A stretch of DNA of 64,000 nucleotides from Cephalotus follicularis (Eukaryota > Streptophyta > Magnoliopsida > Oxalidales > Cephalotaceae): positions 658,793-722,792 of the forward strand of contig BDDD01000125.1 in assembly GCA_001972305.1 (NCBI GenBank). Direction: 5' to 3'. Both the position numbers and the translations under genes were made by a program. Below are positions 31,799 to 56,947 of the stretch, in pieces; within the stretch, counting starts at the first letter, position 1; each line of letters begins with the position of its first letter. The notes beneath the pieces were generated by a model. The model had not been told where the DNA came from, made no database searches, and worked only from the letters and a program-made list of their open reading frames with translations.

Positions 31799-32338
31799 TC
31801 AGAAGTGGACTATGAGGGCGTATGTCTCTCTCAAGATGATCATTTGGTAGTGACTTTTCAAGTAGAATTATTCACTATGAAGAGAATCCTCATTGACAGT
31901 GGGAGATCGGTGGATATCCTCTACAAACATGCTTTTGATCAGTTGAGGATTCTGGCCAACCAGCTGAGGCTAGTGAAGACTTCTCTGGTAGGTTTTGCGA
32001 GAGAGATGGTCCATCCTCTGGGGTCCATCTATTTGTCGGTCGTTGCAGGCATCGCCCCACTCCATACCCAAGTACAGATGACGTTCCTGGTGGTTGACAC
32101 ACCAAGCCCGTACAATGCTATAATTGGGCAACCAGGATTGAACTCGATGGAGGCAATAGTGTCAACAAGGCACTTATTGGTGAAATTTCCTACCAGGTTT
32201 GGTGTGGGGGAAGTCCAAGGAGACCAACAGGTTGCCAGGCAATGCTACCAGACTACCATAAAGGATAAGGGGAAGGGAAAAGCCCTTCCCATAACTAACA
32301 TGGAGCTTAGAGGAGAAGTGGAGCCTGAGTGCTCATAG
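31799..32338 (+). pseudogene. Protease of the Tat element
   Basis: An open frame of about 177 codons. The active site reads RILIDSGRSVDILY, where the family has DSGSSADIL, so the catalytic Asp-Ser-Gly is kept. Later PYNAIIGQPGLNSMEA marks the end of the domain. It would process gag-pol. Relatively clean, but isolated from gag and RT by stops. Confidence 0.8.
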
Positions 32339-32341
32339 CTC

Positions 32342-33711
32342 GTGGAGGAGGTCATGCAGGTGCCTTTGGAGGAAGGCAATGCAAAGAGAGTTTTTCAAGT
32401 CGGATCCAAACATGGAGAGGTGGAGAAAGAGGAACTAATAACGTTCCTAAAAAACAACAGAGATATATTTTCCTGGTTGGCAGAGAAGGTCCCTTGGATT
32501 AGCCCAGAGGTAATGGTGCACGGGCTAAGTGTGGATGCTATACGGCCTCCGACCAAGAAAAAGAAGAGAAACTTCACCATCGAAAGGAAACAGGTGATAG
32601 CAGATGAAGTGAATAAGCTATTGCAAGCAGGGTTTATAAGGGAAGTGCAATACTCTGACTGGCTGAAAAACCCAGTCCTAGTCAAGAAGGCTAACGGCAA
32701 GTGGAGGATGTGCATAGACTTCACAAACCTCAACCAAGCTTGTCCGAAAGATCACTTCTCCCTCCCAAAGATTGATCAACTAGTGGATGCAACCTCCGGT
32801 TACAGAATTTTGAGCTTCTTGTATACTTACTTTGGCTACAATCAAACCCCTATGTACGTACTAGATGAGAACAAGACAACATTCATCACTGATAAGGGTA
32901 TGTATATCTACAAAGTCATGCCTTTCAGACTAAAACATGCTGGAGCGACCTACCAAAGGTGGTCAACAAGATTTTTGAACCTAAAATCGGGAGGAATATG
33001 GAGGTTTATATTGATGACATGCTCATCAAGAAACTAGCAAGGAGTCCTCACATCAAGGACTTGGAGGAGACCTTTGAGGTACTGAGAAGATACAAGATGC
33101 ACCTTAACCCTTCCAAGTGGACTTTTGGGGTCACTTCTGGTAAGTTTCTTGGGTTAATGGTCTCCAGTAAGGGAATAGAGGCCAACCCAGAGAAGATATC
33201 CGCGATTCAAAGCATGAAGCCTCCTCAGTCTATTAGGGATGTGAAAAGATTGAATGGTAAAATTGCAGCCCTGGGTAGATTTGTCTCCAAATCAGCAAAG
33301 AAATATCTTCCCTTATTCAAGGTGATAAGGGACCCCAAGGGGTTTCTCTGGTAAGAAGAATGTCAAGTAGCCTTTGAGAAATTGAAGGAATACCTAGCTT
33401 CCCCTCATATGATATCAAAACCAAGATATGAGGAAGACTTGTATTTGTACCTTACGATGACACAAGGCCCAGTGAGTGCAGTGCTAGTCAGAGAAGAGAA
33501 CAAAATTCAGATGCCAGTGTATTATGTGAGTAAGACCTTAAATGATGCTGAGGGGAGATATCCAGAGGTAGAGAGGTATGCCTATGCTCTGATCATAGCG
33601 GCGAGGAAGCTAAGGCTGTATTTTAAAGCCCATACTATCAAAGTTTTAACCGACAAGCCACTTAGACAAGTATTAACAAAGCCAGACATGTCAGACATAT
33701 TGGTCAAATAG
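32342..33711 (+). pseudogene. Reverse transcriptase and first RNase H of the Tat element
   Basis: Fingers: LLQAGFIREVQYSDWLKNPVL, VKKANGKWRMCIDFTNLNQ, ACPKDHFSLPKIDQL. Palm: FGYNQTPMYVLDENKTTFIT and YKVMPFRLKHAGATYQR. A frameshift near 32960 follows, then the active site VYIDDMLIKK. The thumb and connection (LNPSKWTFGVTSGKFLG) end at a stop near 33354. RNase H follows (33382-33711): TQGPVSAVLVREE, YYVSKTLNDAEGRYPEVER, VLTDKPLRQVL. In this RNase H the usual first Asp region is weak, as is common in Tat elements that rely on the second RNase H. Confidence 0.85.
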
Positions 33712-34212
33712 TCTGTCGAATTGGGTGAATACGACGTTAAGTATGAAGCTAGACCAACAATAAAATCACAGGTCTTGGCCAATTTTGTGGGAGATAATAC
33801 GCCTACAGAGTGTATGGAAGAGGACTCTTTAGAAAATGAGAATAGGATATGGAAGCTATCAGTTGATGGGTCATCCTGTATATCCAAAAATTGAGCATGA
33901 TTGGTGCTGACTAGTCTAGATGGGTGGACCTTGGAGTATGCTCTGAGATTTGGATTCAAAGTGACAAACAATGAAGCGGAATGGGAAGCTCTAATTGTCG
34001 AATTAACAATTGAGAAGCACTTAGAGGTTCAAAAAATAGAAGCCTCTAGTGATTCTCAGCTGGTGATTGGTCTGGTGATTGTAGAGTATGAAGTTAGAGA
34101 AGAGTCCATGGCTAAATATTTAGCCCGTGTTCAGAGATTGAAGTCGCCTTTCCAAGTGTTCCGAGTTTTGAAAGTTCCTAGAGCAGAGAATGCAAAAGCA
34201 GACCAGTTGTAG
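33712..34212 (+). pseudogene. Second (archaeal-like) RNase H of the Tat element
   Basis: Between the Ty3-type RNase H and the integrase lies a separate RNase H. The four catalytic positions can be seen: Asp in WKLSVDGSS, Glu in TNNEAEWEAL, Asp in ASSDSQLV and Asp in RAENAKADQL. Two stop codons interrupt the strand after SSCISKN. An additional RNase H of this type is a known mark of the Tat lineage. It would degrade the RNA strand during reverse transcription. Confidence 0.8.
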
Positions 34213-34300
34213 AAATTAGCTACAGCGGGGGAATTAGAAAAAAAATCAAACCGTTCTTGTAGACTATCTAGACAGGACCAACATCTCGGAGGCAGATGTT

Positions 34301-35572
34301 ATGGACATCGACATCAAACAGGAGCAAAATTGGATGACTCCTTTCATTGATTGGTTAAGGGATGGTATTTTTCCAGAGGACCCAGAGGAGGTGAGAAGAT
34401 TGGTGTATAGATCTAACAGATACCAATTCAGAGAAAGGATTCTTTACAAAAGGTCATTCTCTTCCCTTTGTGAGGAAATGTGATGTCTAACTCCCTCAGA
34501 AGCCGACTACGCTCTGATGGAGGTCCATGAAGGAGTGTGTGGAAATCACACGGGGGGCAGAACCTTATCCAATAAATTGTTGAACCAAGGCTATTTCTGG
34601 CTGATCATGCACCAAGATGCCATCGAATTTGTGAGGAAATGTGATAAATGTCAGAGGAATGCCAACATAAGCAGAAGACCATCAGAGCCTTTGACATTGA
34701 TCACTGCCCCTTAGCCCTTTGCACAATGGGGAATGGACTTCGTCGGACCATTACTAGTGGCAACAAGGCAGAGAAAGTACCTCATTGTGATAGTGGACTA
34801 CTTCACCAAATGGGTAGAAGCAAAGCCCATGGTCATAATAAAGGAGAGCAAGAAGGAGAGCAAGACAAAGAGATTTGTGTGGAAGTCAATCATTTGTAGA
34901 TTTAAGGTCCCCAGAGTAATTGTCTCTGATAATGGGAAGCAGTTTGATTGTGAAGCTTTTCGAAATTTTTGCAAGGAGTGGGGAATTGAGCATAGGCTTG
35001 CCACCCAGAGCAATGGCCAAGCAAAGGTCATTAACAGAGAAATCGTCTTAGGGTTGAAGAAACACCTTGAAGCTAGCAAGGTAAGATGGACAGAGGAACT
35101 ACCCAGTGTATTGTGGGCTTATAGAACCACTCCTCGTACCACAACTGATGAGTCCTCATTTAGCCTTTGTTTTGGATAAGAAGCTATGATACTGGTGGAG
35201 ATTGAAGTCCATTCTCCTCGAGTTGTGCACTTTAATGAAGCTAATAATGAAGAAGGTTTGAGTACTCTCCTCGACTTAGTGAAAGAGCTTAGAGATAAAG
35301 CGGCCATCAGAGTAGCAACCTATCAACAGAGGGTGAGCCGCTATTACAATAAAAGGGTAAACCCCAGACCACTAAGGGAAGGAGACTTTGTCCTCCGCAA
35401 TGCGGCAATTGCTGATCCTACTGGCACCAGAGAAAAATTAGCTCCTAATTGGGAGGGACCTTACAAGGTGAAGAAAGTATTCCGACCTAGAACATTCAAA
35501 CTTGAAACTCTTTGGGGTAGGGAGATTCCTAAAGCTTGGAAAGCCGAGCATCTAAGGAAGTATTACCAATGA
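34301..35572 (+). pseudogene. Integrase of the Tat element
   Basis: HHCC finger: H and H in VHEGVCGNHTGGR, then CDKCQRNAN. The core carries WGMDFVGP (first Asp), IVSDNGKQFDCEAFRNFC (second Asp) and NGQAKVINREIV. The position that is the catalytic Glu in relatives (QxEVTNR) is Lys here. The C-terminal part (35186-35572) has YYNKRVNPRPLREGDFVL and LAPNWEGPYKV, the SH3-like module. Stops at about 34483, 34714 and 35179 split it into pieces. Confidence 0.85.
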
Positions 35573-35914
35573 AGATTGTAAAAATGTAAAAATGTTCAAG
35601 AACATAAATAAAGAGAAGTTTGTCTTCAAAAAGAGCAGTTCCAACATAGTAGTTCCCAGTTTGCAAGGGACAGAAGATCCAATGTTCATGTCCTTAAACC
35701 TCTAAATAGCCTCCAACAAATTCCCTCGACAAAAACTTTAATACAAGCTTGTCAGACCACGCTCTTAAGGGAGTAGTCAGAGAAGGCTCCCAAGAGAGTG
35801 ATCGGAACAGGCCTTAATACAGGACCAGAGCTCTCCCAGTCTCAAGCAGAAAAAGCACCTAAGTAGACTAATGTCTCAAAAAGACTAAAATCTCCAAACC
35901 GATAAGACTCCCGT
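35573..35914 (+). other. 3' untranslated sequence after pol
   Basis: No ORF. Contains paired words of the 'agaccacgctcttaaggg' and 'agtagtc' kind that introduce the repeat array. Confidence 0.5.
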
Positions 35915-36170
35915 TAGAGGAGCATCTAAGACTCCCGTTCGAGGAGCACCTAAAGCTTTAATACAAGCTCATTATAAAAGACTCCTAAGGGAGTAATCTT
36001 AAAAGACCCCTAAGAGGGAAATCAGAGAAGACTCCTAAGGGAGCAACCATAAATGACTCCCACAGAAGCAAATCTAAAAGACTCCTAAGGGAGCAATGTT
36101 AAAAGAATCCTAAGGGAACAACTAAAGGACTTCTAAGGAAGCAATAAATAAAGACTTCCAAGGGAGCAAA
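35915..36170 (+). repeat. Array of about 25-bp palindromic units
   Basis: About ten units of the form GACTCCTAAGGGAGCAA plus a short A-rich spacer. The core is self-complementary. Where the arm changes, the partner often changes too: CTCC-GGAG in most units, CTTC-GAAG in another (CTTCTAAGGAAG). The element at 52053 has an equivalent array with a different core (CCCCCCAGGGGGG). Confidence 0.8.
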
Positions 36171-36172
36171 TG

Positions 36173-36490
36173 CTGGTCGGCAAATCCATAAGAACTTGTA
36201 AGACCAGAATTATATCGTAACTTGAGAAGAGAACACATAAGAACCAGCAACAATCAAGGTTGTTAGACTGAGCGCTTTGATACAAGTGTGCCTAAGGGGA
36301 CTAGAAAGCTCATACTACCTGGTATGAAAAATATCATACCAAACGAGATCCTGGTCTGCAAATCCATAAAAACTTGTTAGACCAGACCTAAAATCTTGGT
36401 CTGTGAACACTAAAGAACTCGCAAAGACCAAGTCTCTTTGCCTAAGCACTTTGATACAAAGTGCCCTACGTGGGCTAAAAAACTTAGGAA
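36173..36490 (+). other. Series of stem-loops (possible structured RNA)
   Basis: Successive inverted repeats: CTGGTC/GACCAG (36173, 36202), TGGTATGA/TCATACCA (36320, 36334), CTGGTCT/AGACCAG (36351, 36379), CTTGGTCT/AGACCAAG (36395, 36425) and GCACTTTG/CAAAGTGC near 36446-36464. Loops of two of them share 'caaatccataagaacttgt'-like sequence. The second Tat copy (52388-52712) keeps the same order of stems with paired base changes. There is no ORF. The region lies between the 3' ends of integrase and the antisense gene. Confidence 0.7.
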
Positions 36491-36858
36491 ACCAAGTCTG
36501 AAAAATATCCAACTATTATAAGAGAAGTCTACAAATAAGATAGAGTAAGTAAAATTTCCTAAGGGAAATGTAAAGCTCAGATGAGGCAAAAAATTAAATT
36601 TTATTACTTAAATGAAAATTCCCAAGGGAATGAAAAAGCTCAAAAGAAGCAGAAGTCAAATTTTATTGCTCGAAAAGAAGAGATTACATTGCAAGAGTAA
36701 ATTGCTACAAAAAAAGGAAAAATTTTCTAGCCTAAACATCATCCCCCGAGGGAATGTTATATACAGGAGGAGAAGTAGGAACTTGAGAGTCCTCGGGTAA
36801 ATGGGAAAAGTTAGGATCCACAGCAGTTTCATATCATTAGATAGGCGTCGTTTAGATC

Positions 36859-36934
36859 CTGGCATAGAAAGACCAAAGTCAGAAGAAGTGCAGAAAGCAT
36901 TCTTCACAAGAAAAAGAAGAAAAAGTTGCATACC
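36859..36934 (-). other. Putative intron 2 of the antisense gene
   Basis: 76 bp, GTATGC ... TATGCCAG, T-rich, phase 0 after an Arg codon. The counterpart in the second copy is 74 bp, also phase 0 after an Arg codon. Confidence 0.6.
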
Positions 36935-37437
36935 CTATTGTTGCTCTGAAGACAGTGGTTGAAGAGTTGGTTAATCGTCAAATCCTTCCTCGCATTCACC
37001 TCAATGGGAAGAAGGAACAACCTGTCGAGCTCAAACGGCACCTTTGGAGTGTTCAAGTCAACACCCGAGTTTCAGAGTGCTTCGAGCCCCTCCTTAACCT
37101 GGTCGGCATCCACAGGAACACCAAGGAGGGCAGAGTCCCAAGGACCCACCTAGCGAGCACCCTCCCTAGAAGAGCCTTCCCCATCTCTTCTTCTCTTGTT
37201 TTGATTTTTGGATGGAAAGGGTGGTTGGTCCTTGGAAATTCGCTTGCCACGGGCAGACCTTGCCCTAGCAGCCTCAGCCTCAACAGCAGCAGCAACCTCA
37301 TTTGATACTCTCTTCTCTGTCACCGCAATGACTTTCTTCAGAGCTCTATGCCTCTCCTCCTCGATAGCAACCTTTACTTTCTCTATGGAAGCTTTCAAGA
37401 CGTCAACTATGGATTGCCTAGAAGCCACTGCTGAAGA

Positions 37438-37527
37438 GAACCACAAGAACAGAGTCAAAAGCATAAAAAATAAATTTCAAGCAAAGTGAAGATATCAGAA
37501 AAAAAGGAGGTGAGGAAGGCTTAATAC
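37438..37527 (-). other. Putative intron 1 of the antisense gene
   Basis: 90 bp, GTATTA ... CTTCAGCAG, T-rich, phase 1. Splicing joins GEI to ASRQS in the exon frames. The other copy has an 87-bp intron with the same GTATTA donor and CAG|TG acceptor at the homologous position. Confidence 0.65.
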
Positions 37528-38685
37528 ATATTTCTCCCTCGTTAACAGGTGAAGCCATGGGTCCTTCTCCGCTATCTTGAGCCCCCTCTCTCTTTATCCC
37601 CACTGGGATCTTCTCTTCCTAATCCAAGGTGTATCGCCGACCAGGGGACATGCTCAGCCCATCACGGCGCAGACGATCTTCGAAGATGGTAGAGTTCACC
37701 TCCTCTAGCTCCACAGCAGAGAGCTTCTCTAGGTCTACCTTCTTCACTACAATCAAAATTGCCCTATGATTGAGACGTTGGGTATCCAACGAGTCACACC
37801 AGTTGCAGGGAGTGAAGCAGGGGAGATTCCTAATAAGGAAGTACCTCCCCCTCCAACCTTTGATAGATTTGGTAAAGTCCACCAACAACTTCTTGGTCTG
37901 ACAAATGCGCGACTTGAAATAATAACCGCGCTTGCCAGGAGATGCATTGAGGGAGTGAAATTCTTTGAATAGCCCCACCGTAGCTATCACCCCGTCTCCA
38001 AACACTTCACCAAGAAGCCTATGATGAAGCCCCAGGATTGCGCTTGAAGTAGCGAAGGGTGAATTTGAAAGTGCCTCAAAATTGCAATGGTAAAGGCTGG
38101 TATGGGGAGTTGCAGGCCATGCGACAGAGCATCTTCAAACACCACAAAGAGACTAAGTTTGCTCTCAGTGGTCTCCTTGGGATCTCGGGGAAGGGAGAAC
38201 TCCAAGCTCCTCGAAAAGCAGTATTTTCTGGATAATTTGAGCACTTTTTCACGGCAGAGCACCCTTATCAATGCGAGTCCTGAAGACTTAGACCACAACA
38301 TCGGTAGAGGTGACATCAAGAGCGAATGCATCGGCGACGTCCATGGACTCCTCTGCACCAAGAGGACGCTCGATGACATTCACCTCTCCTACCATATGAC
38401 GCACCTCTGCAGGGGTAGTGATTTGTCTGGAAGTTTGTTTAACTCTAGCCATCTAGAGATTCACGAAGAGGAGAGTGAGAGTGAGAGGATGAGAAGCCAA
38501 GAGAAATTCCAAAGTGATGCCCTAGTCAATTTGTAAAACAAACAGCAAGGAATGACGCACCTGAGATCTTTGCAAAAGAAAATTTGAAGAAATTGATTGA
38601 AAGTTTGAGAGTTCGCAAGAAGTGGGAGAGCAAAAGTTTTCAAATCTGAAGAAGCGTAAAGAAACTTCTCTAAGAAGAAGGAGCA

Positions 38686-38693
38686 ATTTAAAG
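38686..38693 (-). promoter_or_regulatory. TATA-like box of the antisense gene
   Basis: Minus strand CTTTAAAT about 235 bp upstream of the antisense ATG, followed by a pyrimidine-rich leader (CTCTCACTCTCACTCTCC before the ATG). The second copy has GTCTTTAAATATC about 215 bp upstream, in the same arrangement. Confidence 0.45.
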
Positions 38694-38969
38694 GACTCTA
38701 AACGGATTTCAGACCATGAAATATTTGCAAGATTAAACAGTTGAGAACATCCCATCAAATCAGGTGCGAGAAACAAAGAGGTTGTATGCGGAAAGTGAAA
38801 AGACACAAACGGAAAAAAAGCTTGCTCTGCCGCACCATAGTTAATGCCAGAGTTGGGCCAAATTGTAAGGCTTAAAAGATAAAGCAGTCCACATTATACA
38901 TTACAGGCCCGCTTAAAGCAAAGTATACTTCACAAATGGTCTTCCTCCTCTGCCAAGCCCAGAAAATGA

Positions 38970-38985
38970 AGATCATGGGGGTATA
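38970..38985 (+). other. Polypurine tract of the Tat element
   Basis: AGATCATGGGGGTATA lies immediately before the 3' LTR start TGATATGAG. Confidence 0.75.
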
Positions 38986-39370
38986 TGATATGAGAAAATT
39001 TCTACCCAAATAAAATACCACGTGTTCTCTGCAAATTCAGCCATGAGTCCTCTGGAGCTACAGACACGTGGTTGGGCCATATATCATTTACAATGATAAC
39101 GCACAACATAACGCTCCATCGCCAGATAAGGAAATGGCGAGATACTCGACCATTTTCTAGGAGTACAATAATCATCTTCGTAATGCAAGCAGATGGTGGG
39201 GAGACAGTTACAAACAGGTGATCATATAAATACCACAAAGCAACATTTTAAACAGGTCAGTCAATTTTAGACTTAAAGAACCTTACTATATATTCTCTGT
39301 CACTATCTGACTTAAGCATCAGAGAGTCCCCGGGAGTAGAACCTCCTGGACCTTTGTTCAGTTAATTTTT
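38986..39370 (+). repeat. 3' LTR of the Tat element, truncated
   Basis: Follows the 5' LTR from its first base, including TATAAATA (39225-39232) and the block 'ttaagcatcagagagtcccc'. It ends abruptly at about 39370, where the 5' LTR would continue for another 120 bp or so. From there the sequence is an A-rich tract. Confidence 0.85.
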
Positions 39371-42591: not shown

Positions 42592-43870
42592 TGATAGTCC
42601 GCAAAAGCAACCAAGAGGGGGGTGAATTGATTATGCGGAAAATAACCACTTTTTTTTTTTAAACTTAACAAATGTAAACAAATATTTAATCAAGTTATTT
42701 TAAACAAATATAAGCAACAAAATAACTTGCAAATAATTAAAAGATTAAGGGATAGAAAGTTGCAAACAAGTTTTTATAGTGATTCAGCAAACCGTGCCTA
42801 CGTCCACTATCCCAAGCCGTACTTGAGGTTCCCCTAGAATGTAATCCCCCAATCACAAACAGTAACTCTGGATTTTTACAAGCTAAATCCAAACTTGAAT
42901 TTTTGCGAGCAAAATTCTAACTCGGATTTTGAAGCTAAATCCTAACTTTGAGTAAGGTACTAATGACCTTGGGTATACAACAAGAATATGAAGTGTTTAT
43001 TGTTTATATGTAACCTCTATAAAGGCTGATATAACAGTTTTAAGTATCAAAAATAAAGACTTGAAGATAGCTCAAGAACTCTTTGAAAAATATGAAGACT
43101 AGAATGTGTTTCTTTATTATTTGGCTTGCTCTTTCTTGCTTGATTATTTCTTCATGGATTAAGCCTCTTTTTATAGCCTTCAGAAGATTGTTACCGTTGC
43201 TAGAGTCCAGGAATCGTCAGAGAGCCGTTTGGATAAAGTATGGAAAGGATCACACCATTTCAGCACCTTCAAATTTTACAGATTTTGAGTTTAGCTGTCA
43301 TTGGCGTTAACGTGTACGCATGGCGTTGACGTCTATCCCCTTATGCGTTGACTCATGTGGTTCTTTGCATTAACTCTTCAAGTTTTTCTTCAGATTTACT
43401 TCTATTCACGTTGACGCGCATCCATAGCATTGACACGAATATCATTTGTGTTGACTCCATAACATCTTCACGTTAACATCCAAACTCACAGTCTAAAATG
43501 TGCACCATTTACGTTGACGTCTTGATATGACGTTGACATCTATAGACAAGGTGTTGACTCCACTTGTTTTCTGCGTTGACGTCCAAGTCACTGACGTTGA
43601 CGAAAAGCATAAATTTCCCAGCACGTTGATGAGAATAGAGATGGCGTTGACGAGAATCATCTTGTAAACCCATATCAGGTACTTAAAACTAGCACGTTGA
43701 CGCCTATAACATAATCGTTGACGCCAATAGTCCTGATTTGCAAGTTTAAGCTTTCTTACAATACAAGTAAGCTTAGTTAAAGATTCCTTCACATCAAACA
43801 CCCAGATCATGTGTTTTGTAATCATCAAAACAAAGGATTAAAAAAGGATTGTAACATATAAATGTCAACA
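42592..43870 (-). repeat. 3' LTR of the SIRE-type copia
   Basis: 1279 bp; on the minus strand TGTTGACATTTATATG to GGACTATCA. A minus-strand TATA box (CTATAAAAAG) lies near 43170. It contains the CGTTGACG word array (43305-43735). The inner flank on the minus strand, AAAAAATGGGAGAT, is the polypurine tract. Confidence 0.9.
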
Positions 43871-44370
43871 ATCTCCCATTTTTTGATGATGACAAAACAT
43901 TCACAATAAGAAGGTATAAAACATATAATAAGTTAACTTGACAAAACATTCACAATAGGAAGGTATAAAACATATAATAAGTTAACTTGTGCAAGAAGTA
44001 ACTCATAAGTAACTCATAAAGGTCAAACTATGCATACATACATTATCACAAATACTAACTCAAATACCAACTCCCCCTTAATATGAGGATATCACAATTT
44101 AAATTTAAAAAATAATGCATATCAAAAGATACATATCACATAAACAATTTAACATACTCTCCCCCTTAATAAGCAATCTCATCCCTTTTCGAAATCATCA
44201 AAAGGGAACCATAAATTAAATTCTCCCCGTAAAATAATAACACAAATGCATATGTAACTATTCTATTTCACATAAACTTAGTTCTCTCCTAAGATGTGAG
44301 AATGTACTTTCATCAAGTGGTTTGGTGAAAATATCAGCAATCTGTTCTTGTGTGGGAATGTATGTGAGAG
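43871..44370 (-). other. Internal 3' region of the SIRE-type copia, with duplications
   Basis: A block of about 46 bp (GACAAAACATTCACAATA followed by 'gaaggtataaaacatataat') is repeated in tandem at about 43890-43990. 44280-44370 is an almost exact copy of 44932-45018, the end of RNase H. No env-like ORF. Confidence 0.75.
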
Positions 44371-44642
44371 NNNNNNNNNNNNNNNNNNNNNNNNNNNNNN
44401 NNNNNNNNNNNNNNNNNNNNNNNNNNNNNNNNNNNNNNNNNNNNNNNNNNNNNNNNNNNNNNNNNNNNNNNNNNNNNNNNNNNNNNNNNNNNNNNNNNNN
44501 NNNNNNNNNNNNNNNNNNNNNNNNNNNNNNNNNNNNNNNNNNNNNNNNNNNNNNNNNNNNNNNNNNNNNNNNNNNNNNNNNNNNNNNNNNNNNNNNNNNN
44601 NNNNNNNNNNNNNNNNNNNNNNNNNNNNNNNNNNNNNNNNNN
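44371..44642. other. Assembly gap
   Basis: 272 N bases within the SIRE-type copia. The left edge cuts a duplicated segment. Confidence 1.
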
Positions 44643-44913
44643 AACTTTTTTTTACCAAAGATTCAAACATATTCATATTCTCATAAATTATTATAAGCAT
44701 ACCAAATTAAACTTTTCTTCCTTCTAACATATAAGTAAAACATATATAACCTCGTTTATAAGTCTCCCCCTTTAAAATATCTTAATAAACACATGTAAAT
44801 TCTCCCACATGCACATAAAACATGTGCAAGATATCATAAAGAACATATTAATATATATAGACCACTCCCCCTTTTTGGAAATCATTAAAAAGAATCATAT
44901 GAAACTATTCTAT

Positions 44914-45186
44914 TTAACATAAACCTAGTTCTCTCCTAAGATGTGAGAATGTACTTTCATCAAGTGGTTTGGTGAAAATATCAGCAATCTGTTCTTGTGT
45001 GGGAATGTATGTGAGAGCGACATCTTCTTTTTCTATGTGATCTCTAATAAAATGATGTCTAATGTCTATATGCTTTGTTCTAGAATGATGAACATAATTC
45101 TTAGACAAACAAATGCTACTAGTGTTATCACATTTAATAGGAATTTTACAAAAGCTATAACCATAGTCCACTAGTTGTTGTTTCAT
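44914..45186 (-). pseudogene. RNase H of the SIRE-type copia
   Basis: KCDNTSSICLSKNYVHHSR and TKHIDIRHHFIRDHIEK, then the polyprotein end QIADIFTKPLDESTF with LRRELGLC. The upstream part with the first Asp and Glu is degenerate (45190-45300). Confidence 0.8.
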
Positions 45187-45404
45187 CCAAAGTGCTTGGG
45201 CACAACAACTTCTGACCGTAATGTAATCAGCCTCAATAGTGGAAAGTGCAACAGAGTTATATTTTTTACTAAATCATGACACTAACATGCTACCTAAGAA
45301 TTGACAAGAGCCTTTTGTGCTCTTTCTATCAACCTTGTACACACTGAAGACGGCATCAGAATAGGTATGCAATTCAAAATTAGAATCCCTAGGATACCAT
45401 AAGC

Positions 45405-46738
45405 CTAGTGTAGGTGTATATGCAAGATCTTTAAAGATGCGTTTACAGTAAATAAATGTGACTCTTTAGGATCAGACTGAAAACGAGCACACAGACACAC
45501 AACAAACAATATGTCAGGTCTACTTGCAGTAAGATACAATAAAGAACCTATCATACTTCTATAAAGATTTTGATCAACAGATTTACCTTTCTCATCTTTA
45601 TCAAGCTTTGTCGAAGTACTCATCGGTGTCTTGCTTTTTTTTGCATTCTCCAATCCAAAGCGTTTGAGTAGATCCCTCACATATTTGGATTGACTGATGA
45701 AGATTCCGTCTTTAAGTTGTCTAATTTGAAGTCCAAGAAAGAAACAGAGTTCTCCCATCATACTCATTTCGAACTCATCTTGCATCAACTTAGCAAAATT
45801 CTTAAACATCGATTCGTTAGTAGAAAAAAACACAATGTCATCCACATAAATTTGAACAATTAAAATATCATCATTATTTTTCTTTGTAAACAAAGTAATA
45901 TCAACGAAACCACGTTTAAAATCATTTAAAATCAAAAACTTGCTCAATCTTTCATACCAAGCTTGTGGAGCTTGTTTTAAACCGTACAAAGCTTTTTACA
46001 ATTAAAAAACATGATCAGATAAAAATGATCAATAAAACCAAGGGGTTGTTCAACAAAAACTTCTTCTTTTATAAATCCATTTAAAAATGCACTTTTAACA
46101 TCCATTTGATACAAAGTAAAATTTTTATGAGATGCAAAAGCAAGTAACATGCGAATGGATTCAAGTCTAGCTACGAGAGCATATGTTTCATCAAAATCTA
46201 TCCATTCTTCTTAGGAATAGACCTTAGTAACAAGTCTAGTCTTGTTCCTACCTTGATCATCACTTTTATTTCTAAAAACCCATTTTGTTCCAATAACAGA
46301 ATGATCATCAAGTCTAGCTACAAGTTCCCATACATTGTTATGTTTAAACTGATTTAGCTCTTCTTGAATATCTATAATCCAGAATTCATCAATTTAGGCC
46401 TCATTTATATTTTTAGGCTCGATTTATGAAAGAAAAGCTAAATAGTTACACGTATTGTATGAGGACCTCGTAGTTACACCTCCAGAAGGGTTACCTATGA
46501 TATCATCAATAGGATGGTCTCTAACAAGATTTCTATTTCTAACATGGGGAATATCTAAAGGTTGTGAAGATGTTCCAACTACATCATCTAAATATTGACT
46601 ATCACTCAAAGAAAAATCATTAGCTTTTTCTTGAAGTAAATCAACATCATCATCATCAATATGATTAGAAATAAAAACATTCGATTCATCAAATATAACA
46701 TGCACAGATTCTTCAACAACTAATCTTTTCTTATTCAA
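45405..46738 (-). pseudogene. Reverse transcriptase of the SIRE-type copia
   Basis: 46424-46738 is the integrase-RT linker (RLVVEESVHVIFDESN, then an acidic stretch). The degenerate fingers follow, then a clean 194-codon frame (45405-45989) with MYGLKQAPQAWYERLSKFL, the active site VQIYVDDIVFFSTNE, FEMSMMGELCFFLGLQI and RSMIGSLLYLTASRPDI. The YVDD box is intact. Confidence 0.85.
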
Positions 46739-46749
46739 AATTGTATAAG

Positions 46750-47977
46750 CCTTACTAGAGTTGGAGTATCCAAGAAAAATACATTCATCGGCTTTTGCGT
46801 CGAACTTACCGAGGTTGTCCTTGCCGTTGTTATATACGAAACACTTGCATCCGAATGCTCAGAAGTAACTAATTTTAGGCTTTCTCTGCCTCCATAATTC
46901 ATATGAAGTCTTTTTGAGAATCGGCCTTATTGTTATTCGATTCAACACATAACATGCAGTGTTTACGGCCTCAGCCCAAAAGTATTTTGGTAAACCATTT
47001 TCACATAACATACTTCTAGCCATTTCTTGTAAAGTATGATTTTTTCTTTCTACAACTCCATTTTGTTGAGGAGTTATAGGAGTTGAAAAATTATGACTAA
47101 AACCATTTTCATTACAAACATTTTCAAAATCAACATTTTCAAATTCTCTACCATGATCACTTCTAATAATTTTAATGGTAGAGTTCTTTTAATTTTGAAC
47201 CTTCTTAAAAAAATGTTAAACTCTTTAAATGCATCACTTTTATTTGTCAAAAATAAAGTCCAAGTAAATCTTGAAAAATCATCTACAATTACTAAAGCAA
47301 ATTATTTTCCACCAAGGCTTCTAGTTCTAGATGGTCCAAACAAGTCCATATGTAATAGTTCTAATTGCATAGTTGTGGAAATAACATTTTTACTTTTAAA
47401 AGATGATCTAGTTTGCTTCCCCATTTGACAAGCATCACAAATTTTATCTTTTTCAAAAAAAAATTTGAGAAGGCCTTTAACAAGATCAAATTTCAAAATT
47501 TTGGAGATAGTATTCATACTAGCATGTCCTAATCTCTTATGCCATAGCCAACTATTATCATTGTTCATAGAAACAAGACATTTAACATTTTGAAAAACAA
47601 GATCTTTTATATTAACAACATAAACATTGTCTTGCATATATCCAATGAACTTGATTGAATTATCTAAAACATTTACTACAATGCACTGTGTCTTTTCGAA
47701 TGTAACTCTATAACCTTTATCACACAATTGAGTTATGCTAAGAAGGTTATGTTTGAGTCCATTAACAAATAAGACATTGTCAATAGAGGTTGAGGAATTT
47801 TTACCTATGGTGCCAACTACTTCAATCTTCCCTTTTGCATTGTCTCCGAAAGTTACAAGTCCTCCGTCTTTTAGCTTTAATGAATTGATTCTTGTTACCC
47901 GTCATATGTTTGGAGTAGCCACTATCCATGTACCATTGATTGGTTTTGGCATTCAAGTGCTCCTACAAGGATCAAAA
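46750..47977 (-). pseudogene. Protease and integrase of the SIRE-type copia
   Basis: The protease motif WYMDSGYSKHMTG lies at about 47940-47900. The pre-integrase block NDNSWLWHKRLGHASM is within 47302-47727, followed by the CDACQMGKQTRSSF zinc region and the first catalytic Asp in HMDLFGPSRTRS. Past 47302 the core is split among frames; the minus strand around 47150-47180 still shows the SDHGREFEN-type block. Several stops. Confidence 0.75.
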
Positions 47978-48343
47978 TCATGGTGAAGCTTTTGGTACCC
48001 AAACAACCTTGGGTCCTTTTAGGTTAGTTGTAAAAGATCCTTTCGAAACCCAAATCCTTTTAACATTAACATTATAACTTTTATGCCAACATGTATATGA
48101 AGTATGTCCATACTTGCCACAAAAATTACAAGAGATAACATGCTTTCTATGCCAACATTTACTAGAAACGTGTCCAACTTTACCACAATAATTAAAAGAA
48201 ACAATATTATTAGTTTTCTTTGTAACAACATCATTATCTTTCTTTCTATCAACCAAATTATTAAAATGAACAATCTTGTTCATTTCATCAAAACCTTGGC
48301 CAGCCCTATCAAAGACACATCTTTGAACACCTAAATGCCTCTC
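47978..48343 (-). pseudogene. gag C-terminus with two zinc knuckles, SIRE-type copia
   Basis: FNYCGKVGHVSSKCW and CNFCGKYGHTSYTCW are CCHC knuckles (the first has Phe for its first Cys), followed by the SIRE-like tail KGPKVVWVPK. The open frame begins inside the LTR A run, so its apparent N-terminus is LTR sequence and the true start is gone. Confidence 0.85.
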
Positions 48344-48349
48344 AAAAAA

Positions 48350-49579
48350 AAACTTAACAAATGTAAACAAATATTTAATCAAGTTACTTTACACAAATAT
48401 AAGCAATAAAATAACTTGTAAATAATTAAAAGATTAAGGGATAGAAAGTTACAAACAAGTTTTTATAGTGCTTCGAAAAATCGTGCCTACGTCCACTCTC
48501 CCAAGCCGCACTTGAGATTCCACTAGAATGTAATCCCCCGATCACAAACAGTAACTTTGGATTTTTACAAGTTAAATCCAAACTTGAATTTTTGAGAGCT
48601 AAATTCTAACTCGGATTTTGAAGCTAAATCCTAACTTTGAGTAAGGTACTAATGACCTTGGGTATACAACAAGAATGTGAAGTGTTTGTTGTTTATATGT
48701 AACATCTACAAAGGCTGATTTAACAGTTTTAAGTATAAAAAAGAAAGACTTGAAGATAGCTCAAGAACTCTTTGAAAAATATGAAAACTAGAATGATGTT
48801 CTTTGTTATTTGGCTTGCTCTTTCTTGCTTGATTATTTCATCATGGATTAAGCCTCTTTTTATAGCCTTCAGAAGATTATTACCATTGCTAGAGTCCAGG
48901 AATCGTCAGAGAGCCGCTTGGATCAAGTATGGAAAGGATCACACCATTTCAGTACCTTCAAATTATGCAGATTTTGAGTTTAGCTGTCATTGGCGTTGAC
49001 GTGTATGCATGGCGTTGACGTCTATCCCCTTATACGTTGACTCCTGTGGTTCTTTACGTTAACTCTTCAAGCTTTTCTTCAGCTTTACTTCTATTCATGT
49101 TGATGCGCATCCATAGCGTTGAAGCGAATATCATTTGCATTGACTCCATAACGTCTTCACGTTAACGTCCAAACTCACTGTCCGAAATATGCAACATTTG
49201 CGTTGACGTCTCGATATGACGTTGACGTATATAGACAAGGAGTTGACTCCACTTGTTTTCTACATTGACGTACAAGTCATTGACATTGACATCTTCCTCA
49301 AGGCGTTGACGAAAAGCATAAATTTCTCAGCACGTTGACGAGAATAGAGATGGCGTTGACGAGAATTATCTTGTAAACCCAGATCAGGTACTTAAACCCA
49401 GCACGTTGACGCCTATAACATAATCATTGATGCCAATAGTTCTAATATCTAAATTTAAGCTTTCTTACAATACAAGTAAGCTTAGTTAAAGATTCATTCA
49501 TATCAAACACCCAGATAAGGTGTTTTGTAATCATCAAAACAAAGGATTAAACAAGGATTGTAACTTATAAATGTCAACA
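48350..49579 (-). repeat. 5' LTR of the SIRE-type copia, 3' end deleted
   Basis: Matches the other LTR from TGTTGACA (49579) to the A run at 48344-48352, but lacks the final stretch ending GGACTATCA. The gag end starts directly after the A run. By eye about one base in ten differs between the LTRs over 42700-42870 and its counterpart, mostly C/T and G/A changes. Confidence 0.9.
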
Positions 49580-50418
49580 GGCATGAACGGCTAGGCCACC
49601 CAGGTGTGACAATGATGCATAGAATCATTGAAAATTCACATGGTCATCCACTTAAGAACAAGAAAATGCTATTGAATAATGAGAACCATTGTGTTGCTTG
49701 TTCACAAGGAAAACTCATTATAAAACCATCTATAACAAAAGTGGTTGTAGAATCTCCAAAATTCTTAGAGAGAATTCAAGGAGATATTTGTGGACCGATT
49801 AATCCACAATCTGGACCATTTCGGTATTTCATGGTCTTAATAGATGCATCGACAAGATTGTCGCATATATGCTTGCTTTCAACTCGTAATGTTGCATTTA
49901 TGAGACTATTAGCTCAAATAAATAAATTACGAGCACAATTTCCAGATCATCCTATAAAATCTATTCGGCTAGATAATGCTGCTGAATTTTTTTCCAAAGC
50001 ATTTAATGAATATTGTATGGCAATAGGAATTGCCATTGAGCATCATGTTCCTTACGTACACACCCAAAATGTGTTAGCCGAATCTCTTATCATAAGACTT
50101 TAATTGATTGCTCGTCCTTTATTGATGAGGTCAAAGTTACCCATTTCAACTTGGGGACATGCGATATTGCATGTTGCGGCTCTTATACGTATAAGACCAA
50201 CTGCATATCATAAATATTCTCCATTGCAACTTGTTCTTGTTCAAGAACCAAACATATCCCACTTAAGAGTGTTTGGATGTGCAGTATATGTCCCTATTTC
50301 ACCTCCTCGGCGGAGTAAGATGGGACCACAACGCAGACTTGGTGTTTATATGGGATTTGATTCTCCATCAATTATAAGGTATCTTGAACCGTTAACATGT
50401 GACATGTTTATTGCATGA
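49580..50418 (+). pseudogene. Integrase of the copia element
   Basis: Continues the split motif as ERLGHPGVTMMHR, then NNENHCVACSQGK. The catalytic triad is in GDICGPINPQSG (Asp), IRLDNAAEFFSKAF (Asp) and NVLAESLIIRL (Glu), all retained. A stop after IIRL (50103) precedes the C-terminal region with HLRVFGCAVYVPI and MGFDSPSIIRYLEP. Apart from the stop this is the best preserved integrase in the window. Confidence 0.85.
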
Positions 50419-50823
50419 TATGCAGACTGTCATTTTGATGAATTGGTTTTTCCAGTGTTAGTGGAAGACAAGATTTTATTGAAAAATGAAAATGAAAATT
50501 CATGGAAAGCATTAAGAGTACATAATTTTGATCCACGTACAAATGAATGTGAACTACAAGTTCAAATGATCATTACTTTGTAAAATATTGCTAATCAAAT
50601 GCAAGACGCATTTAATGATGCTTAAAAAGTGGTAAAATCTTATATACTAGCTGCAAATGCTCCAACAAGAATTGATACTAGTGAAAACTCAATCGATATA
50701 TTAAAGTCTAAACCACAGTTGAAACATGGTAGACCAATTAGTGCTAAAAATATTGTGCCATGAAAACGAAAGGCAAATAAGGGTGGTGTACAAAACCCTG
50801 AAATAGCATTAACACAAGATAAT

Positions 50824-51990
50824 GTGTTATTTCCAGAACCCACATTGACTCCAGAGAAAGTACAAAGCCCTGAAGAGGCTGTGGGATTTCAAAATCAAGA
50901 AGTCTTGATTAATTATGCACATAATGAACAAATATGGAATCGAGATGAGATTATAGTTAACGACAAGTTTGCCTATGTTGTTGCAATGGATATTGCAAAT
51001 CCTGTTATGGATTATGAATCACAAATTATTGAACAATGTCAACAAAGAAATGATTGGCCAAAATGGAAAGATGCAATACAAGCAGAGTTGCAATCTGTGT
51101 CCAAAAGAGAAGTATTTGGACCAATAATTCAAACACCAAATGGTGTAACCCCTGTTGGATTCAGATGGATATTTGTTCGAAAACGAAATGAGAAAAGTGA
51201 AATTGTGAGATAACAAGAAAGGCTTGTAGCTCAAGGGTTCTCACAGAGACTAGGTATTGATTACCAGAAAACAAATTCTCCAATTATAGATGGAATCACT
51301 TTTCGATTCCTAATTAGTATGGCTGCTTCGAACGGACTTGAAACTCGTCTTATGGACGTAGTAACAACATACTTATATGGATCACTTGATAGTGACATAT
51401 ATATGGGAATTCCTGATGGATTTAAAGTTCCTGAATCGAACAAATCTCACCACATGTATTCAATTAAGCTAAAAAATTCATTGTATGGATTGAAACAATC
51501 TGGTCGAATGTGGTACAATCGACTAAGTGAATATTTAATCAAACAAGGGTATACAAATGATCAAATATGTCCATGTATTTTTATTAAAAAATATAACGAT
51601 AGATTTGCTATTATTGCAGTATATGTGGATGACTTAAATCTTATAGGTACTTCTAAAGAACTTACAAACATTGCGACCTATTTAAAAGGTGAGTTTGAAA
51701 TGAAAAACCTTGGAAAAACAAAATTATGTCTTGGTATACAGGTGGGGCACATATCATCTGGATCTTCATCCATCAATCAACATACACTAAAAAGGTTCTT
51801 AGTCGATTCAACATGGACAAAGTTTATCCTCTAAGCACTCCAATGGTCGTCCGATCTCTTGATGTCAAGAAGGATCCATTTCGTCCTCAAGAAGAAAGAG
51901 AAGAAATTCTCAAACCTGAAGTCCCTTATCTTAGTGCAATTGGAGCTCTATTGAATCTTGCAAATTGAACAAAACCTGATATTGAATTTT
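50824..51990 (+). pseudogene. Reverse transcriptase of the copia element, 3' truncated
   Basis: NDWPKWKDAIQAELQSVSKR and FRWIFVRKRNEKSEIVR open the RT. After a stop come LVAQGFSQRLGIDYQKTNSP, YLYGSLDSDIYMGIPDGFK, LYGLKQSGRMWYNRLSEYL, the active site AVYVDDLNLIG and KLCLGIQ. A frameshift near 51730 follows, then RPQEEREEILKPEVPYLSAIG. The frame ends at 'RRHWNEI' (about 52045), just before RNase H. Confidence 0.85.
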
Positions 51991-52164: not shown

Positions 52165-52385
52165 ATGAAAAAAGCCTCCCCCAGGGGAGCACAAAAAGAC
52201 CCCCCAGGGGGCATACCAAAAGACCCCCTAGGGGGCACACCAAAAGACCCCCCAGGGGGCATTCCAAAAAGACTCCTCCAGGGGAGCACTCAACAAAGCC
52301 TCCTCCAGGGGAGCACGGAAAGACCCCCCAGGGGGGCAGTTCTAGAAAGACTTCAAATGAAGTAATAAGACTCCCCAGGGAGCAC
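52165..52385 (+). repeat. Array of about 30-bp palindromic units, second Tat copy
   Basis: About eight units around cores such as CCCCCCAGGGGGG, CCCCCTAGGGGG and CTCCTCCAGGGGAG, each followed by 'gcacaccaaaaaga'-like spacers. Both strands remain open through the array because of its unit structure; I do not consider either frame a gene. Confidence 0.85.
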
Positions 52386-52387
52386 AC

Positions 52388-52712
52388 TCTGGTCAGTAAC
52401 ACCATAGGAACTTATTCGACCAGACCTGAAATCTTGTCTTGAGAGGCGAATCCATGGGAACTTACAACGATCAAGTTCGTTGGACTGAGCACTTTAATAC
52501 AAGTGTCCCTACGAGGACTACAAGCTCAGACGACCTAGTTCACAACATGATGAACCAGACGATATCCTGCTCGGCAAACCCATAGGAACTTTCCCGAGCA
52601 GACCAAAAACTTAGTCTACGAACACAACAGAACTCGTAAAGACTAAGTTTCTTTGCCTAAGAGCCTTTGAAATAAGGTGTCCTAAGGGGACTACAAAGCT
52701 TAGGTGATTTGT
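52388..52712 (+). other. Series of stem-loops, second Tat copy
   Basis: Stems: TCTGGTC/GACCAGA (52388, 52418), CTTGA/TCAAG (52438, 52471), CTGAGC/GCTCAG (52485, 52524) enclosing CACTT/AAGTG, CTGCTCGG/CCGAGCAG (52567, 52594), ACTTAGTCT/AGACTAAGT (52609, 52640) and CCTAAG/CTTAGG (52656 to about 52702). The order and loops match 36173-36490, with stems changed on both sides. Confidence 0.7.
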
Positions 52713-53860
52713 CCTAAGGGAATGGCGAATGCCCAGGAAGAGCTCAAACACAGCGTACAACTCGAACAGAGCCCAGGGTAAAAAAAAATGGTATTTCATG
52801 AGTACTTGATGACATTTCAAAGCAAAGAAATAAAGCATACACAAGTGAGGTGCAAAGGTACTCCTTTTTCATTGATCAATATGAAATTTACATCGCTGAG
52901 AAGAAAGAAAAATACAAAAGGCAAGCAAAAATCTACTCTAAGTTCTCATCCCCGAAAGGAACGTCATACACGACTGGAGGAGGAGGAGGATCCAGAGGAG
53001 TTGGATAAGTAGGCAAGGGTAGATAACATTCAGCCAAGCTCCCCAAAGGAGCATCCTTGACCACGAGCACAAGTGAGGGTTCCACTGTCGAGGGATCCAT
53101 GGGAGGGTTCTCAGTGAGAATTGTGGAGAGGGGTTCCGCACCCCCAGGAACCACCCAGGAACATGACAACATCACGCCCCTCAGGAATCCACTCCGGGTC
53201 CCAGGCTGGGTCCTGACCCTCGTCAGTAGCTTGGAAGGCCCTCTCCTCGACTTCATCAACCCCATCAGGAATGAAATCATAATCATTCACCTGAGGCCTA
53301 CAGATGATAGACTCCAGGGGGAGCTCAGGGTGAAACTCCACCATGTTTTGACAGGAGTAAAACCCCCGATGAAAAAGGACTAAGGACATCTTGAAGACCT
53401 CTTTGGTGAAATCTTTTGAGGATCGGAAGTTGTCCACAGCCCTGGCCATGGCTTCTTCAAACCCCGTGGAAGCCCAAAAATTGTCCACGGCCCTGACCAT
53501 GGCGTCTTGGTACTCAGAGGAAGCCTTGAAGTCAAGAATGGCCCTCTCCATGCCAGCTTTGGTCCGGACCCCCTCAAGGTCTTTGTACTCCACAAGCCTC
53601 TCGCCGTAGGCCTTCACCTTTTCCTCAAGCAGGGCGATCCTCTCAACCGTAGCCATCCTTATCCTCCACTCCCTCTCCAGGTCTTCGAGGGCTCTGTCCT
53701 TCTCAGCAGTGAGGCCCTCCTGGGCACTAATCACATCCTCGAGTTGGGCATTTAGCATATTCTCCCTCCTCTTATACTCGGCATTCTCAGCCCCAATCTA
53801 CTCGAACAGGGACCTCTCCTGGTCAGTCCTCTCCATCGCAAGCTGGGCATCATTCATTAG

Positions 53861-53934
53861 CTGAAAAGAAGAATGTATAGTCAGGGGAGAGTAGAAGAGC
53901 CAATGATGTCAAGAGTTAGAGAAAATTCACTAAC
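53861..53934 (-). other. Putative intron 2 of the antisense gene, second copy
   Basis: 74 bp, GTTAGT ... CTTCTTTTCAG, phase 0 after AGA (Arg). Homologous to 36859-36934. Confidence 0.6.
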
Positions 53935-54678
53935 TCTGAAGCCGCTTTGGAAGAGGTGGATCCATAGGAGGGGAATGTCCCAGTCTTCCCTCAACCCCAC
54001 TTCATGGGGGAAAAGACCAGTCTTGCCCAGCTCAACAGCTACCCCATGCGTCTTCAAATTCACCCCGGTCCTGCCCAGCCTGGCAAGGATCCTGTTTATT
54101 TCATCCATCTCCTTGGTGGGGTATAGCATGGCAGGGTCCTTGGGGCCCTCCCCAAAGGGGTTCAGCCCTAGGAGAGTCTCCTCCATCGGTCCTCTGCCTC
54201 CTCGATGGGTGGTCGAGGTCATCAACGGCAGCCCGCTTCCCCCGGGCAATCTTAGCCCTCCTCGTCTCGGCCCCGGTATTCAAAGCCACAGTGGTCCCAA
54301 CAAACTCAACACCCCTTGCATGGGTATCAACGGTTGTACCGCCTCTGGCCCTGGCCTCCTCAGCCTGGGCCCCTGCCTCCTTAGTACTTTTGCGGGCTCT
54401 CTCCACTGCCCGGGCCCTTGCCTCCTTGACACCTTTGCGGGCTCTCTCCACAGCACGGGCCCTCGCCTCCTCGGTACCTTTCCGGGCACGCTCCTCTGCC
54501 CTGGCCCTGTCAGCGACCTCCCTGGAAGCTCCTCTTCCCGCTCCATCAGTGGATTTCATCCTCAGGAGGGCCTTTTTCTTCGATTTGGCCTCCCGCCTCA
54601 GCTGTTCAGGGTCCTGCGCCCTGACCTACTCTCGGGCAGACCTGACGGCATCCAGAGCTGATTGTCGATTAGCCATCA

Positions 54679-54765
54679 CTGCACAGAAGTATGGAAAAAA
54701 GGTTAGAAAAATATCTGAGAAGGAATAATAACAGAATAATAAAAATCCAAGGGAAAGAATAATAC
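54679..54765 (-). other. Putative intron 1 of the antisense gene, second copy
   Basis: 87 bp, GTATTA ... CTGTGCAG, phase 1, T-rich. Homologous in position and donor to 37438-37527. Confidence 0.65.
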
Positions 54766-55961
54766 AACTCTCTCATTGGCCAGTTGCCATGGACTCAGGT
54801 CCATCTCGGGCACCCGTGCTCCTCCCTCTCTCAACTCCCACAGTAGGGGATCCAGGTCTATCTTGGGCGTCTGAGCCCCCATCAATCCTAATTCCCGTAA
54901 GGACCTCCCCAGCCAGGTTCGGCCAAGCCCTGCAACCATAGGTCCTGCTAAGCCCATGGGTCTGCAGGTTGATCTCAAAAACCACTACCAGCACCTTCTC
55001 TGGGGCAAGCGCTAGAAGCTTGTCCAGGTCAACCCTCTCCTCCCTGGACAGAAACACCCTTTGGCTAAGGGCCACTGTATCCAAGGTGTCAGTCCACGGG
55101 CTCAGAGTGAAACCGGGAAGGTTCTTGACCATAAAATACTTCTCCCTCCAGTTCTTCACTGTCCTGGTGTTCTCCGTCAACAACCTGTGATGACCTACTT
55201 GCGACTTGAAGTAGAAGCCCCGCTTCTTTGGGGAGGAAACTATAGTATGGAACTCCTTAAATAACCCAACAGTGCCTGTCACCCCCGCCTCAAGGCACCA
55301 AACCAGGAAGCCAATAATGAATCCCCAGGACTGGGCCTAGAGCATCAGAGGATGAACCTGGTAATGTCTGAGGATGCTGATGGCGAAGGGGGCCAGGGGA
55401 AGTCTTAGCCCATGCACCAGGGTACTCTTGAAACACCATAAAATAACCCTGCCTGCTCTCTGTGGCCATCCTGGGATCATAGGGAATCTCCAAGTCCAAG
55501 CTACCAGGGATGGAGTATTCCTTGACTAGCTCCTCCAGTTTCTTCACACTCATCGTGGTCTGTTCGAAATCAACCCTAACAACTTGGACCCCAGCCTCTG
55601 GGGCTACCGTGTTGGGGTTCCCAGCGTTGGAAGCCTCCATCTTCACCTCCATGTTAAGGGGGCACTCAGTAATGGTGACCCCCTGGAGACAATCGGGCTA
55701 CCACCTCAGAACGCTTGACCAGCCTCCTGGTCTGTTTGGTCCTGGCCATGGTGTTTTGAGAGAGAAAGGAAGATGAAGACGAAGACGAAGACGAAGTGGT
55801 CATAACAATCAAGCGAAAGGTAAATGAAAACTAAAGTTCACCTGTATACTTGAGAAAAGAAGAAAACGAAGTTTGAAGATTGGAAGAACAAGGGATTCAA
55901 GAAATCTTTTGTTTTTAGGGACTGTGATTGCTTAAAGAACATCCCCAAAGGGCGAAGGGGA

Positions 55962-55970
55962 TATTTAAAG
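55962..55970 (-). promoter_or_regulatory. TATA-like box of the antisense gene, second copy
   Basis: Minus strand GTCTTTAAATATCC about 215 bp upstream of the ATG, with a CT-rich leader (TCGTCTTCGTCTTCATC) before the start. The first copy has GTCCTTTAAATTGC at a comparable distance. Confidence 0.45.
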
Positions 55971-56386: not shown

Positions 56387-56947
56387 TGATGTGGGGAATT
56401 TTCTATTTAAAGCACAGTGCCACGTGCCCTCAGGAGAAGATGTCAGATGTCTTTCCCAGGCCTGGACACGTGGCCCAGCATTATAATTTGAATGGCATTA
56501 ATATGCCGTGATCATCGGGCGCTACCAGCCCAAGACCAAAGATGTGCGCATGCACAACACAATGTCTTACAAGGAAGGAGCACCAAATATGGCGGAGATC
56601 AGGGGGAATGCCTGAGCTCCTCGGGCATTTTCCTTAGGGGCAACCATCAATTCCTTTTTTCACGATCGACAGTTACATTGGAGGTCTATATATACAAAAT
56701 CAAAAGACTTCAACCAGGTCAGGCACTTTAGCACTCAAAAGAACCTAGTATTCTCTGTGCAATTACTAACTTGAGCATCGGAGTGTCCCCGGGAGAACAA
56801 CCTCCTGGACCTTCAACCTTTGTGCTCTTATTGTGCAGGGATCGTCAACCACGAAACGACCTTTTTCAAACAGATTCCAGCGTTTACCTAAACAAATCAA
56901 GCCCTTACACATGAGGTACTATTGAGGGAAGGATTTTTGCATCAACA
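56387..56947 (+). repeat. 3' LTR of the second Tat element
   Basis: 561 bp, TGATGTGGGGAATTTTC ... TTTTTGCATCAACA. TATATATA box at 56687-56694, family block TTGAGCATCGGAGTGTCCCC near 56770. No primer site follows, so it is the downstream LTR. Confidence 0.85.

Follow-up and report, generated by a model that had tools for sequence, protein, structure and literature searches.

Two copies of one three-exon gene, B (55749-52933) and A (38452-36732), lie on the minus strand of a 64,000-nucleotide stretch of the Cephalotus follicularis genome (contig BDDD01000125.1), which is referred to here as the window. The gene is probably the TRP28-type accessory gene that Retand/Tat-type Ty3/gypsy elements carry in antisense, here with two conserved introns, a spliced antisense mRNA and a protein start that resembles the tail of histone H3. 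Its anatomy, the conservation of its introns and the selection acting on its exons and on the N-terminal ARTKQT can be read from the nucleotide sequences themselves. Relative to the known TRP28 antisense ORF, the conserved introns and the unexpected H3-tail start appear to be new.

Anatomy of the two copies in the window

Exon 1 of copy B (54766-55749, minus strand) begins with the ATG at 55749 and is broken by frame changes. Its first codons (55729-55749) spell MARTKQT, the histone H3-like start, and a match to Transposase_28 (PF04195) is located at 55244-55375 with 18.4 bits, under the Pfam cut-off of 26.2. Intron 1 (54679-54765; 87 nt, phase 1, GT...AG) is followed by exon 2 (53935-54678), which harbors one frame change, is Arg/Glu-rich and contains an NLS-like motif. 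Intron 2 (53861-53934; 74 nt, phase 0, GT...AG) separates it from exon 3 (52933-53860), which ends with the stop codon at 52935-52933. In copy A, also on the minus strand, the ATG lies at 38452 and the stop codon ends at 36732; it consists of a broken exon 1 (37528-38452), intron 1 (37431-37527; 97 nt, GT...AG), exon 2 (36934-37430), intron 2 (36859-36933; 75 nt, GT...AG, branch-like motif at -20) and a remnant of exon 3 (36732-36858). Both copies are broken, as exons 1 and 2 of B carry frame changes and stops, while exon 3 of A is mostly lost.

A preliminary description had proposed a three-exon antisense gene in both copies, with the exons split by two T-rich GT...AG segments each, and this structure was recovered together with the proposed intron phases of 1 and 0. 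The lengths given there (90/87 bp for intron 1, 76/74 bp for intron 2) agree with copy B, but intron 1 of copy A matches neither 90 nor 87, and its intron 2 was located at 75 nt. In each gene the two introns coincide with the two T-richest 75-nt windows, with T fractions of 0.59 and 0.44 in B (gene mean 0.23) and of 0.59 and 0.49 in A (gene mean 0.28). Such stretches might instead belong to a single long reading frame and encode hydrophobic segments, and the two window copies alone are insufficient against this reading because the 87 nt of intron 1 in B hold no in-frame stop. The question was decided by the genome copies and not by the window pair.

A donor-like AG/GT was observed in the 5' untranslated stretch, at about 55850-55835 in B. 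It is kept in 14 aligned copies (AAGT in one), among which no consistent acceptor partner was found; a further intron at this place is possible.

Intron conservation across genome copies

With the open part of B exon 1 as query, 12 proteins were obtained, all 12 from Cephalotus follicularis, and PF04195 is present in 10 of them; the piece of copy A gave no PF04195 match. No relatives were found among viral contigs. A first look at the 1.58-Gb Cephalotus follicularis assembly yielded 14,324 candidates for P0004, 14,404 for P0011 and 14,834 for P0009, of which 143, 125 and 131, respectively, were scored. The copy number is large, and no exact figure is attached to it since the rest of these candidates are unscored. 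For the comparisons, 59 further copies of two diverged families were used. The B family comprises 39 loci, which are all scored hits of a 401-nt probe from exon 2 except the window, taken without frame screening, and the P4 family comprises 20 of the 143 scored P0004 matches, mostly listed without stops and therefore a biased set. Short pieces were added, namely five starts of P0011-family copies as well as eight starts and five intron 1 stretches of A-like copies.

Intron 1 was compared in 38 B-family rows including B, in 20 P4 sequences and in A (L035 has no letters before the donor and L038 falls short). Of the 37 B-family rows that have letters at this position, 33 retain the GT, as do 18/20 P4 sequences; the AG is retained in 38/39 and 17/20. 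A branch-like CT[AG]A[CT] whose A precedes the intron end by 24 nt was found in 31/38 B-family and 14/20 P4 sequences and is absent in A. The intron length is 0 mod 3 in 33/38 B-family rows and 2 mod 3 in 17/20 P4 sequences, and stops in the frame of exon 1 occur in 4/38 and 18/20, respectively. In the five A-like copies both GT and AG are present (5/5) and stops occur in 4/5. The donor GTATTA is conserved across families, yet weak by consensus, with no AG before it and T at +5; an early idea for this intron, that a family donor GTGAGT had decayed in both window copies, was wrong. Column identity between the families averages 0.585 over intron 1, with 0.83 and 0.92 at the GT and 0.95 and 0.88 at the AG.

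For intron 2, the exon 3 start could be placed in 52 of 61 sequences (35 B-family including B, 16 P4, and A). Here the GT is kept in 51/52 and the AG in 44/52 (29/35 B-family, 14/16 P4, and A), and a branch-like motif ending at -20, searched with a permissive pattern, was detected in 32/35 B-family and 13/16 P4 sequences as well as in A. The donor has G at +5 in 35/35 B-family and 14/16 P4 sequences and in A, while +3 and +4 differ between the families. The length is 74 nt in 33/35 B-family sequences and 75 nt in 13/16 P4 sequences and in A, and in-frame stops are present in 50/52. Between-family identity is lower than in intron 1 (mean 0.444), with 0.97 and 1.0 at the GT and 0.97 and 0.76 at the AG; in both introns some other columns score equally high, and GT and AG belong to the best conserved positions without standing alone.

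These alignments bear on the idea that the T-rich stretches are coded. The B family speaks for it, as its intron 1 seldom contains a stop and usually has a length divisible by three (mostly 87 or 90 nt), and the annotated protein P0001 reads right through intron 1; moreover, the exons are joined in no annotated protein, which likewise counts against a spliced gene. However, intron 1 of the P4 family is out of frame and rich in stops, that of A measures 97 nt, and intron 2, interrupted by stops in nearly every sequence, differs between 74 and 75 nt by family with exon phases unchanged. As the exon phases of 1 and 0 stay constant while the intron lengths change class, the reading frame can be maintained only by removal of these segments. 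Coding stretches are thus scarcely credible overall and, judged from these sequences, already refuted for the P4 family and for intron 2 unless frame shifting is assumed. The properties of spliceosomal introns, GT...AG ends, a branch-like motif and a phase that is kept as the length changes, were found instead. In line with the preliminary description, which had postulated a separate two-intron antisense gene and proposed splice-site conservation across family copies as a check, splice sites, branch-like motif and phases are conserved in further copies, and GT and AG are mostly kept in the 59 examined.

It is unlikely that the exons represent two or three unspliced antisense ORFs that each start from an ATG of their own. 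In exons 2 and 3 a conserved ATG does stand directly behind the splice site, as would suit separate ORFs too: it lies 2 nt past the intron 1 acceptor and 3 nt past the intron 2 acceptor in nearly all B-family and P4 sequences. Antisense ORFs are also counted separately by Vicient 2025 (PMC11963269), who lists 104 in 63 clusters. On the other hand, GT, branch-like motif and AG are conserved and the phases match on both sides, the exon 1 frame enters the intron and meets stops at differing places, and copy A is without ATG at either exon start.

The introns had been proposed to persist since the RNA that is copied is the other strand, and the genome searches support this. A 24-base pattern of the unspliced intron 1 boundary gave 1,058 matches (backward control 2) and an unspliced intron 2 control pattern gave 166, whereas a 22-base pattern of the spliced intron 1 junction gave 7, all with 2 mismatches (backward control 0). 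Two of these 7 were examined as possible intron-less copies and both were unrelated, so that no copy with intron 1 cleanly removed was verified among the two. A further candidate, L009, was rejected as well, because two CTGT repeats bound its gap and a GCAG remains, which indicates deletion and not splicing. The lack of a verified spliced-out copy fits sense RNA as the only template.

Selection and the histone H3-like start

Between the B and P4 families, dN/dS (Nei-Gojobori, stop codons skipped, with pairs that are not independent and synonymous sites near saturation at pS 0.61-0.67) was 0.24 for exon 1 (738 pairs), 0.28 for the end of exon 2 (464 pairs) and 0.22 for exon 3 (634 pairs). Shifted frames of the gene strand gave values of 1.00-1.73. 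The opposite strand yielded 0.92-1.75, apart from the frame whose third positions coincide with those of the gene, where 0.32-0.36 was obtained and the true frame was lower in every case. Exon 1 of copy A gave 0.20 against the B family, and the comparison of A with P4 gave 0.18. Within P4 the ratio was 0.21-0.31; within the B family it reached 0.45-0.53, a point against the proposed gene. The variation within this family looks mostly like decay after insertion. Judged by the between-family ratios, the protein is kept by selection, as had been proposed. That the antisense RNA itself matters, as double-stranded RNA or siRNA, and the protein is dispensable has been raised as a possibility for such ORFs (PMC7264820). 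For the present gene this is very improbable, as both the between-family dN/dS and the constraint on ARTKQT act at the amino-acid level.

Most copies with a start begin with MARTKQT[RK]R, compared to ARTKQTAR in H3 chains; six residues (ARTKQT) are identical to the H3 tail at the very N-terminus, and R8 is shared in addition. Of the 40 B-family sequences, window B among them, 7 are without the start stretch; ARTKQT is exact in 26 of the remaining 33 and in 13/20 P4 sequences. Copy A starts with MARVKQT (38452-38432), and among eight A-like copies two have an exact MARTKQT, one has MARTK-stop-T and five show one or two residue differences. The H3-like start is not universal, as the P0011 family does without it: its five copies (L070-L074) read MASQEQT in three cases and MASQEHT and MASQEQS in one each, with ARTKQT in 0/5.

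Codons 2-7 showed a pS of 0.86 and a pN of 0.04 between B and P4, compared to 0.72 and 0.32 for codons 8-13 and 0.49 and 0.35 for codons 14-24, in a count restricted to sequences with no more than 3 changes from the motif (32 from the B family, 20 from P4), which omits L037 (MSKTKLT) and somewhat favours conservation. H3 residues that stand at the N-terminus and are constrained were thus found in the B and P4 families and not in the P0011 family. In the whole genome, the exact pattern MARTKQT followed by R or K gave 1,244 matches (backward control 2), a count that excludes true H3 genes (Ala comes next in these) and alone proves no constraint, as the pattern fixes the amino acids. Codons 2-7 occur in 38 spellings in the first 50 of 100 listed places, which is what a conserved peptide encoded by drifting DNA would give. 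Four listed places (C46, C64, C72 and C102) lie 108 nt before P0004 matches, and the assignment of such places to the gene covers those four only.

The antisense protein may act as an H3-tail mimic. That a spliced antisense retroelement protein imitates the K4 region of the H3 tail (ARTKQTxR) to titrate or recruit H3K4 readers or demethylases, leading to escape from silencing, is a tentative and rather doubtful proposal. The gene may well be as described with ARTKQT serving as a basic start or a localisation signal, or having arisen by chance. The resemblance to H3 ends at residue 8, L, F, I or Y stands in place of K9, the P0011 family dispenses with the motif, and a phmmer search with a 20-residue query from the start retrieved no PDB chain at all, not even H3. 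Against this non-mimic reading, six consecutive residues plus R8 match at the very N-terminus, as in H3, and constraint is no weaker on the uncharged T, Q and T than on R and K. The nearest parallel for the start is influenza NS1, a parasite protein with the H3-tail ARTK (PMC3510240). Unlike NS1, the protein described here belongs to a plant retroelement, shares six residues plus R8 and carries them at the true N-terminus.

A TATA-like TTTAAATA is present 193-260 nt before the ATG in 43/53 copies, in B at 55962-55969 on the minus strand (220 nt before the ATG). Its position fits a promoter of the gene's own, and it would presumably be used as one. The antisense gene would then be transcribed opposite gag-pol from its own upstream region and its mRNA would be spliced twice (phases 1 and 0). 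The predicted product of somewhat less than 900 residues would comprise the ARTKQT start, the TRP28 domain (AlphaFold pLDDT 38.8 in this region), an Arg/Glu-rich part with the NLS-like motif (KR...[KR]RQR in several copies) and a helical, coiled-coil-looking end. The introns would survive transposition because new copies come from sense RNA, where they stay unspliced, and the spliced antisense mRNA would not be copied back. The likeliest action of the free ARTKQT end would be to occupy host readers or erasers of H3-tail marks, and we take LDL1/2, SHH1 and PHD readers to be candidate targets; the rest of the protein would stay at the element and silencing would be blunted. Taken together, we infer a nuclear protein that is made from a spliced antisense mRNA and shows an H3-like tail to host chromatin factors, because of TTTAAATA, the published relatives (own promoter, nuclear gene23 product; see below), the DNA-binding prediction for TRP28 and the NLS-like motif. 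Transcription, splicing, nuclear location and binding are in each case predictions. Should the start function as a mimic of H3, a very abundant protein family would gain a concrete testable function, and plant retroelements would have a new way to handle silencing. It would be a histone mimic in a retrotransposon, and the introns of its gene would never be lost through reverse transcription.

Known antisense genes and the surrounding elements

Antisense TRP28 (PF04195) ORFs of Retand elements are known and very widespread, and TRP28 is predicted to bind DNA (Vicient 2025, PMC11963269); the domain was reported in 23% of Retand elements (Neumann 2019, PMC6317226). The ORFs of the 2025 survey, like the gene described here, are antisense, lie between pol and the 3' LTR and contain PF04195. 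The survey treats ORFs of at least 600 bp without introns; its main text does not contain the word 'intron', and no H3-like start was noted in it. Grande gene23 and the antisense ORFs of Silene Retand elements are likewise antisense accessory genes, relatives have a promoter of their own for antisense transcription, and the product of maize Grande gene23 is nuclear (Vicient and Casacuberta 2020, PMC7264820). The main text of this review is also free of the word 'intron', and introns in the Grande and Silene ORFs are unmentioned there, while it calls for looking for antisense and spliced transcripts. Ogre, of a related plant Ty3/gypsy lineage, shares the presence of a spliced intron, but that intron is located on the sense strand between gag-prot and RT and is partly spliced, whereas the introns described here are antisense (PMC6317226). 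Among the titles and abstract openings listed, none reported introns in such ORFs or an H3-like start; reports in Gomez-Orte 2013, Kejnovsky 2006 and Steinbauerova 2011 are possible. For TRP28 antisense ORFs, the fixed exon-intron map gives exact junctions for RNA-seq, and surveys restricted to ORFs would cut one TRP28 gene into pieces.

Copy A is held by a Ty3/gypsy element on the plus strand (29428-39370) with an LTR-like pair at 29428-29812 and 38986-39370 (87.5% identical). Its RT (32342-33037, plus strand) was identified by Pfam (RVT_1), and its gag and integrase pieces were named by look. The gene is antisense between pol, which extends to 35569 on the plus strand, and the LTR-like repeat from 38986. 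An antisense ORF between pol and the 3' LTR had been described as a known kind, which corresponds to the TRP28 ORF of Retand-type elements, and the position in A fits. The antisense TRP28 gene suggests that element A belongs to the Retand lineage.

Both copies had been placed in Tat elements. This agrees with the Ty3/gypsy element around A, but beside B no Tat gag-pol was recognisable in the window by tblastn with the gag, PR, RT, RH and INT pieces of A. The same search matched A itself, a 51-residue gag remnant (1532-1380), other elements and short weak stretches. Common to B and A are a spacer behind pol (52194-52704 in B) and an LTR-like stretch (56668-56813 in B). The ORFs adjoining B (49564-51831) are Ty1/copia (rve, RVT_2).

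Two different Ty1/copia bodies adjoin B, one on the minus strand (42661-49579) between 91%-identical repeats and the one with the adjoining ORFs on the plus strand directly beyond. Elsewhere in the window, nested elements were observed at 15311-28066, with outer repeats (15311-15969 and 27404-28066, 91%) that enclose a gypsy-like gag-pol (19930-24354, named by look) flanked by repeats at 18762-19876 and 24542-25735. A reversed remnant at 1393-2365 shows about 69% similarity to the 5' portion of element A (30750-29746), and a 79-bp repeat is present in three tandem copies at 9659-9895.
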